49,424 nt of DNA from positions 1 through 49,424 of the forward strand of contig JAQCDG010000003.1 in assembly GCA_027731085.1 (NCBI GenBank), given 5' to 3'. The notes below the pieces were generated by a model. It did no database searches. It saw only the letters and a list, made by a program, of their open reading frames with translations, and was not told the origin of the DNA. Shown piece after piece: positions 19,436 to 21,500 of the stretch. The DNA comes from Actinomycetota bacterium. GTDB taxonomy: Bacteria > Actinomycetota > Acidimicrobiia > Acidimicrobiales > Ilumatobacteraceae. A program made the position numbers and the translations under genes. How positions within the stretch are numbered: position 1 is the first letter of the stretch; the number at the start of each line of letters is the position of its first letter.

Positions 19436-19708
19436 ATGGCGCGCGTGAGACTTTTTGCCTCGGCTCGACAAGCCGCGGGTACTGCGAGTGTTGAAATCGC
19501 TGGGCGAACCGTAGATGAAGTGTTGCAAGTAGCCGCCGAGAAATTCGGCGCAGAATTTGTTGCCGTGTTGAAGACCTGTCGTGTTTGGCTGAACGGCGAA
19601 GAAGCAATTGGAACTACAGCCGTGGGCGATGCCGACGAGGTGGCGATTTTGCCACCGGTCTCGGGTGGTTGTGCGGGCCTTTTAGCGATTGAAATTGAAA
19701 CTAAATGA
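19436..19708 (+). CDS. MoaD/ThiS-like sulfur-carrier protein with residues beyond the Gly-Gly
   Basis: VRLFASARQAAGTASVEI, VLLNGEE-like VWLNGEEAIG, DEVAILPPVSGG then CAGLLAIEIETK. Confidence 0.8.
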   Translation: MARVRLFASARQAAGTASVEIAGRTVDEVLQVAAEKFGAEFVAVLKTCRVWLNGEEAIGTTAVGDADEVAILPPVSGGCAGLLAIEIETK

Positions 19709-20199
19709 AAGACGTAGTCGATCCGAGCGCGATGACGACCGCTGAGTTGCGCAGTGCTCGCGCGGCCTTGCAGATGCAAGAAGATGTGATTTCGTTTGTT
19801 CGCCGTATGGCGCAAGGACGTTGCGACTTGGCACGAGATGAGCAGCGCCGTCGCACCGATGGCACACCTGCATCAGGCATCAGTGTTTCGGATATCGCCA
19901 ATGTGTTCGGACAAGAAGGCGGTGGTGGTTCGTCGCGGCCGCCGCGCGAAACAAATATTTCTGCTGATCACGAATTGGTCGTTGAACTCGAAAAACTTTG
20001 TGAGCGCGTTGGTTTTGGTGAGGTGCGCACGCTTGCTGACGATGCGCTTGAGACAGCCATCGCCGAAATCGAGAAGTTCGAACTTGCGCGTTCGGCAGAG
20101 CGCAAAAATTTGTTTGCCAAAATTGATGCGCTGACAACTGAATTAGTCAAGCGATACAAAGATGGCGGCGCCAATGTCGATTCGCTACTAACTGACTAG
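19705..20199 (+). CDS. RsiG-like (aerial mycelium formation protein family) putative c-di-GMP-responsive anti-sigma factor
   Basis: EDVISFVRRMAQGRCD matches E-x3-S-x2-R-x3-Q-x3-D exactly; second copy ELARSAERKNLFAKID with Q to F; ATGA overlap with upstream ORF. Confidence 0.75.
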   Translation: MKDVVDPSAMTTAELRSARAALQMQEDVISFVRRMAQGRCDLARDEQRRRTDGTPASGISVSDIANVFGQEGGGGSSRPPRETNISADHELVVELEKLCERVGFGEVRTLADDALETAIAEIEKFELARSAERKNLFAKIDALTTELVKRYKDGGANVDSLLTD

Positions 20200-20288: not shown

Positions 20289-21500
20289 ATGCAGCGCGTT
20301 GCGGTCATTTCAATGCACACTTCACCCCTGGCACAGCCTGGTGTCGGTGATGGCGGTGGCATGAACGTTTATGTTCGTGAACTCGTTTCGGCGATGGCTC
20401 AAAAAGATGTGCAGTGCACCACATATACGCGGGCGTGGCGTGAAGGTTTGCCCAGAGTCGTCGAAGTCGAACCGAATCACAAGATCGTGCACATCGAAGC
20501 CGGTCGATTTGATCTTTCAAAAGACGAACTACTTGATTTCGTTGATTTGTTTACACAGTTAGTTGCCGACGACATTGAATTGTCTGGTGGAGCCGATGTG
20601 TTGCACGCGAATTATTGGTTGTCGGGTCTTGTTGGTCATCGACTCAAGCACCAACTTAATTTGCCGTTGGTGACGACATTTCATACATTGGCTCGCGTCA
20701 AATCACTTGGTGGTGACACAGAGTCTGTTGTTCGTGAGCGAGCAGAACTTGAGATCATCGGTTGCGCCGATGCAATTTGTGTGAGTTGCCCCGAAGAGTT
20801 GAGTCAATTTCGTGCGCTTTACGGTCAGTCGCCAGGTGTCGTGACCGTTGCGTCGCCCGGTGTGGCAACTGCATTCTTTTCACCGGGTGATCGCCAAGGC
20901 GCACGACGCGCACTCGGCTGGGGAAACAAACCGTTGATGTTGTTCGTTGGCCGCATTCAGCCGCTCAAAGGCGTCGATGTCGCAGTTAAAGCACTAGCAA
21001 AACTTGAGAACAAGGACGCCGAATTGATGATCGTCGGTGGCGCCAGTGGTTCTTTTGGTTCAAGTGAGTCGGCGCATGTTCGCAAACTCATTTGTGATTT
21101 GCAACTCACTGGTCGAGTACATTTCGTCGAGCCTCAGCCACACCATTTGCTTTCAACTTATTATCGTGCCGCCGATGTCGTGTTGGTACCGTCGCGAAGC
21201 GAAAGTTTTGGCCTCGTTGCGCTAGAAGCGGCAGCCTGCGGCGTGCCGGTTGTTGCTAGCGCAGTTGGTGGGTTGCTCAATTTGGTCGAGCATCAGCAAA
21301 CAGGTTTCTTGGTGAAAGATCGCAACCCAGATGAGTTCGCGAAATATGTCGACCAGTTGCTGGCAGATCCGCTGTTGGGTTTGACGATCGGCAACCGCGC
21401 AGCACAGCGCGCCAAAGATTATTCGTGGTCGGCAACCGCAGAGAGCGTGACTGGTGTTTATCAGGCGCTGCTTGCTGGGCAACTCGTCACTTGCCTATAA
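20289..21500 (+). CDS. mshA: D-inositol-3-phosphate glycosyltransferase (mycothiol biosynthesis)
   Basis: ISMHTSPLAQPGVGDGGGMNVYV, TFHTLARVK, FVGRIQPLKGVDVAVKAL, PSRSESFGLVALEAAACGVPVVAS. Confidence 0.94.
   Translation: MQRVAVISMHTSPLAQPGVGDGGGMNVYVRELVSAMAQKDVQCTTYTRAWREGLPRVVEVEPNHKIVHIEAGRFDLSKDELLDFVDLFTQLVADDIELSGGADVLHANYWLSGLVGHRLKHQLNLPLVTTFHTLARVKSLGGDTESVVRERAELEIIGCADAICVSCPEELSQFRALYGQSPGVVTVASPGVATAFFSPGDRQGARRALGWGNKPLMLFVGRIQPLKGVDVAVKALAKLENKDAELMIVGGASGSFGSSESAHVRKLICDLQLTGRVHFVEPQPHHLLSTYYRAADVVLVPSRSESFGLVALEAAACGVPVVASAVGGLLNLVEHQQTGFLVKDRNPDEFAKYVDQLLADPLLGLTIGNRAAQRAKDYSWSATAESVTGVYQALLAGQLVTCL

Follow-up and report, generated by a model that had tools for sequence, protein, structure and literature searches.

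A conserved phenylalanine in the second c-di-GMP motif of a twin-motif RsiG from Ilumatobacteraceae-type Acidimicrobiales

Solved structures of RsiG anti-sigma factors include those of Streptomyces venezuelae and Rubrobacter radiotolerans. The Streptomyces venezuelae protein (PDB 6pfj, 6pfv; annotated AmfC) is a single chain carrying two c-di-GMP motifs. The Rubrobacter radiotolerans protein (PDB 7lq2, 7lq3, 7lq4) has a single motif, works as a homodimer, and has been proposed to control type IV pili. The solved RsiG complexes have shown what each motif residue does, the glutamines stacking on guanine (PMC8325347). A change of Q to H in motif 1 has been published as the sole exception to the conserved motifs (PMC8325347). 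Twin-motif RsiG was reported in 2021 in three of four Acidimicrobiales species (PMC8325347), of the same order and architecture as the protein described here; the lineage cannot be called little studied in this respect, as a reading of the sequence alone had done.

The family in question and its motifs

The window, that is, the whole 49,424-nucleotide stretch of DNA analyzed, carries one rsiG gene, the only copy found in the genome. The assembly measures 1.53 Mb in 160 contigs, with a listed completeness of 87% and contamination of 6%. Features of the gene are the following:

19705..20199, plus strand: rsiG, twin-motif RsiG anti-sigma factor (164 aa plus stop, from translation)
19738..19860, plus strand: predicted helix alpha-1, residues 12-52, with motif 1 (AlphaFold2, pLDDT about 95 for residues 11-50)
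19780..19827, plus strand: c-di-GMP motif 1 in alpha-1, EDVISFVRRMAQGRCD, with E26, S30, R33, Q37 and D41 (translation)
20038..20160, plus strand: predicted helix alpha-5, residues 112-152, with motif 2 (AlphaFold2, pLDDT 95-98 over most of it)
20080..20127, plus strand: c-di-GMP motif 2 in alpha-5, ELARSAERKNLFAKID, with E126, S130, R133, F137 and D141 (translation)
20113..20115, plus strand: TTT codon of F137; S. venezuelae has Q at this guanine-stacking position (sequence)

The ORF is an ordinary actinobacterial member of the RsiG family. Over its whole length it matches Pfam RsiG (PF22802; 68.8 bits, cut-off 27; E=3.1e-19; in two stretches), and phmmer aligns S. venezuelae RsiG (6pfj_T) to residues 8-162 with E=4.1e-12. 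Since the ORF as a whole matches the Pfam family, and residues 8-162 the S. venezuelae protein, the agreement with the motif is beyond a chance pattern match. With a profile built from 24 RsiG sequences the match to 6pfj_T reaches E=5e-43, and E-values for the Rubrobacter chains lie between 2e-11 and 5e-11; among NCBIfam models none matched the window RsiG. Close homologs, at up to 98% identity, were found in metagenome-assembled genomes. Homology to RsiG, proposed in the sequence-only reading from the motifs, is borne out by Pfam profile, PDB sequence and fold, and translation places both motifs at exactly the positions which that reading had assigned to them.

The AlphaFold2 model (pLDDT 86.5, pTM 0.78) features the motifs at equivalent places of two 41-residue helices, spaced by exactly 100 residues. 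Foldseek returned four significant matches, all of them S. venezuelae RsiG chains, 6pfv/6pfj giving the best fold match (6pfv_T, E=6.6e-6, TM about 0.70). The two proteins are alike in being twin-motif single chains of the same length class, with E, S, R, Q/F and D at the same positions of two long helices; structurally aligned, they are about 29% identical. They differ at the fourth position of motif 2, Q in S. venezuelae and F in the window RsiG. In terms of the pattern E(x)3S(x)2R(x)3[Q/H](x)3D, motif 1 is exact, and motif 2 is exact save for F at the Q/H position. Rubrobacter RsiG shares motif and coiled-coil chemistry and matches the motif-1 half, but is a single-motif protein, whereas the window RsiG is twin-motif.

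WhiG, c-di-GMP enzymes and candidate outputs

A WhiG-type sigma factor is encoded on contig 57 of the same genome (G000:C57:10584-11348; TIGR02479, 260.8 bits against a cut-off of 189.6), unlinked to rsiG. Its best PDB match is S. venezuelae WhiG (E=2.6e-70, far above FliA; 49% identity over 245 aligned residues). The best-scoring NCBIfam model is the WhiG equivalog NF004935, at 289.6 bits, below its cut-off of 343; the protein is called WhiG-type because of the best match, the ligand contacts and the co-occurrence with RsiG, and because it passes the cut-off of the broader FliA/WhiG subfamily. Residues K57, G61 and R62, which contact c-di-GMP in S. venezuelae WhiG (PMC8325347), correspond to K38, G42 and R43. 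In 32 aligned WhiGs the contact K and R are present in all, the G in 28. The gene, flanked by a xerC-like gene and an M23 peptidase gene, lies in a xerC-whiG-M23-rpsB-tsf-pyrH-frr block, most gene names being assigned by reading ORFs; whiG is located near rpsB in Streptomyces, too. RsiG and WhiG co-occurrence was assessed in 61 genomes (the window genome and 60 relatives), counting WhiG as present at 210 bits or more, a line picked after the scores were seen. Both proteins are found in 43 genomes, RsiG only in 6, WhiG only in 3, neither in 9 (Fisher P=4.5e-5, a value only indicative, because the genomes are related and many of the mismatched ones incomplete).

Two GGDEF-EAL proteins are encoded in the genome, one featuring SGDEF and the other GGDEF, both with EAL. 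A PAS link is seen in one of the two, and a long, hydrophobic N-terminal region in the other. From these putative enzymes the genome is predicted to be able to make and degrade c-di-GMP. The sequence-only reading had called for a search of the genome for WhiG and GGDEF/EAL genes, and RsiG homology, a WhiG with all three c-di-GMP contacts and two GGDEF-EAL proteins are all in place; neither of the outcomes that would have told against that reading was observed. A complete RsiG-WhiG-c-di-GMP toolkit is in this way located in a small-genome aquatic actinobacterial lineage. RmdB of S. venezuelae, likewise a GGDEF-EAL protein, is reported to antagonise the binding of RsiG to WhiG (PMC13232838), and the window-genome protein with the hydrophobic N-terminal region is a candidate for likeness in layout. 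The locus L086:646-2928 encodes a GGDEF-EAL protein whose N-terminal part is long and hydrophobic, in a layout resembling that of RmdB.

By analogy, c-di-GMP-dependent sequestration of WhiG is the most likely function of the protein. It is highly probable that the window RsiG is a monomeric twin-motif protein sequestering WhiG in this way, with F137 most likely stacking on guanine. A pair of long helices, antiparallel and bearing an E(x)3S(x)2R(x)3[Q/F](x)3D motif apiece, would together hold an intercalated c-di-GMP dimer, in which the ring of F137, in the place of glutamine, would stack on a guanine base. When c-di-GMP is high, RsiG and the ligand dimer would clamp WhiG; when it falls, WhiG would be freed and its targets transcribed.

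In contrast to S. venezuelae, the host is not known to sporulate. The output proposed for Rubrobacter, type IV pili, was considered in the form of a PilM-type pilus, and rejected: PilM was found neither in the window genome nor in the rest of the family, and gave one weak match in the genus, so that the Rubrobacter answer does not transfer directly. Flagellar-type promoter patterns with up to one mismatch were not in excess over a reversed-pattern control in 29 genomes, and so lend no support to the output side of the switch; most of the 15 sites in the window genome fall within long open frames. One of the 15, a one-mismatch promoter-like site, GAAAAATTCGTTCTA[A/T]CTCGCCGATAA, is located in L105 near position 883 on the reverse strand, 20 nt ahead of where a conserved frame has its first ATG, and is present also in the relatives L089 and L090 (three genus members in all). 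It could be a WhiG promoter or a chance match, and is too weak to support a claim.

The fourth position of motif 2

Counts refer to the genus, to the family, meaning Ilumatobacteraceae-type Acidimicrobiales (NCBI places Ilumatobacteraceae under Acidimicrobiales), to the order and to the phylum. Position 137 is F in all 25 genus members with RsiG, the window genome included, encoded by TTC in 18 and TTT in 7, although the nearby positions 135 and 138 differ in residue within the genus. The wider family has F as well, apart from a single Y. Elsewhere in the order, H occupies the position in 14 sequences, F in 4 and Q in none. A further 40 twin-motif sequences from the phylum have Q (11), H (11), L (10), F (4), I (3) or M (1); in the Streptomyces-like family it is Q in 11 of 11. 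Homologs with F, L, I or M being common, the residue does not define RsiG membership.

At position 37, the counterpart in motif 1, the 53 sequences of order, family and genus have Q in all but one, which has H (52 Q), and the residue is Q or H throughout the phylum; within the genus the Q37 codon varies synonymously. The other motif residues change little. No family sequence that covers motif 2 has lost its E, S, R or D; in motif 1 some of the family have D for E, and other sequences show a few A, R, E, S and N. The asymmetry between motifs, Q or H only in motif 1 and any of Q, H, F, Y, L, I and M in motif 2, is real and phylum-wide at the sequence level, and corrects the expectation that the two motifs are equally fixed. 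Departures from Q are confined to motif 1 in the published logo (PMC8325347); here they are found mainly in motif 2, and in the Acidimicrobiales sampled they are in motif 2 (H, F, Y) with one exception.

The sequence-only reading had taken the second copy as degenerate. Decay of motif 2 would leave the second half-site weak or lost, with RsiG binding one c-di-GMP, or WhiG ligand-free. F in place of Q does deviate from the published consensus, and motif 2 is the more variable of the two in the phylum, but decay is very unlikely and was rejected on conservation, codon use and recurrence. An invariant residue encoded by two synonymous codons, next to positions that vary, denotes purifying selection on F137, and the remaining motif-2 residues are whole. 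In an RsiG tree made without the motif-2 column, from high-scoring homologs and with many weakly supported branches, the motif-2 residue requires at least 17 changes, and F/Y, set against all other states, at least 6; it is common for homologs to have H, F, L, I or M at this position. F137 is, on conservation and codon evidence, a conserved alternative and not decay, found family-wide, recurring in other lineages, and placed at a guanine-stacking position. The earlier family call was correct, for a family already reported in the lineage; the misreading was to call a substituted residue degenerate.

Since the position stacks on guanine (PMC8325347), F probably conserves or retunes the contact. 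The aromatic side chain most likely keeps the stacking in place of Q, as judged by analogy; no structure of an F-containing RsiG was found, and we infer the contact for this reason. An aromatic ring, too, would be able to stack on the base; L, I and M lack an equivalent way of doing so, and the position may hence just need a bulky flat or hydrophobic contact. Retuning is a refinement of WhiG sequestration with F137 stacking, the two being non-exclusive: both half-sites would bind, with altered affinity or cooperativity, giving an asymmetric response fitting cells with two GGDEF-EAL proteins. This is a tentative reading, less probable than not, to which the finding that F is strongly conserved where c-di-GMP enzymes are very few, and the visibly unlike constraint on the two motifs at this position, lend some weight. 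GGDEF-rich members of the order, such as G044 with 23 and G053 with 15, also have F, however, which argues against a tie to enzyme number. Functionally asymmetric half-sites are possible. The motif-2 variants provide a natural mutant series for probing the role of the residue.

Two related members of the phylum, L220 and L222, have R-S-R-Q-E at the aligned positions of motif 1, in contrast to E-S-R-Q-D, and I in motif 2. The change in motif 1 may possibly correspond to a real loss of ligand contacts, or to a misalignment.

The adjoining moaD-like gene

The gene upstream of rsiG is the following:

19436..19708, plus strand: moaD/ThiS-like gene (Pfam ThiS, E=2e-12; best NCBIfam model moaD, 51.2 bits, below the cut-off of 66.15)

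Its stop overlaps the rsiG start (ATGA), and translation of the two genes is therefore probably coupled. In the family a MoaD/ThiS-like gene is found directly upstream of rsiG in essentially all loci examined, mostly overlapping or nearly so. The product ends in PPVSGG or in a short extension of it; outside of the family, the motif was found there in two members of the order only. MoaD-like proteins mostly have 0-2 residues past the double glycine, while that of the window species has 12, CAGLLAIEIETK, as do those of a few close relatives.

MoaD and RsiG reside in a single ORF, with both Pfam domains above cut-off, in three genomes of the family (L015:1246-1989, L084:1-792, L146:165-914), with no clear linker from the PPVSGG double glycine to RsiG. 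L015 and L146 are closely related, L084 branches apart in the RsiG tree. To free the C-terminal double glycine of the fused MoaD, cutting or an internal RsiG start would be needed; an internal start codon could also give free RsiG. The window genome encodes MoaE and a Prok-JAB protein, the latter a possible processing protease. A literature search retrieved no relevant paper naming both RsiG and MoaD, and the moaD-rsiG adjacency and fusion may be more unusual than RsiG itself.

In this family RsiG might have an extra or other role, tied to the coupled or fused MoaD-like sulfur carrier, as the nearly constant adjacency and the three single ORFs could suggest. Such a role is very unlikely, given that adjacency may mean shared expression only, that the ligand motifs of RsiG are fully retained, and that MoaE, encoded in the genome, gives MoaD an ordinary partner. 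Highly unlikely, too, is a functional tie in which RsiG and the MoaD/ThiS carrier, translationally coupled in most genomes and made as a MoaD-RsiG polyprotein in some, possibly cut past the double glycine, would link cofactor or sulfur-transfer status to WhiG activity. The gene on the opposite side of rsiG (20289-21500) has mycothiol MshA as best match, at 366 bits, under the equivalog cut-off of 462.5.
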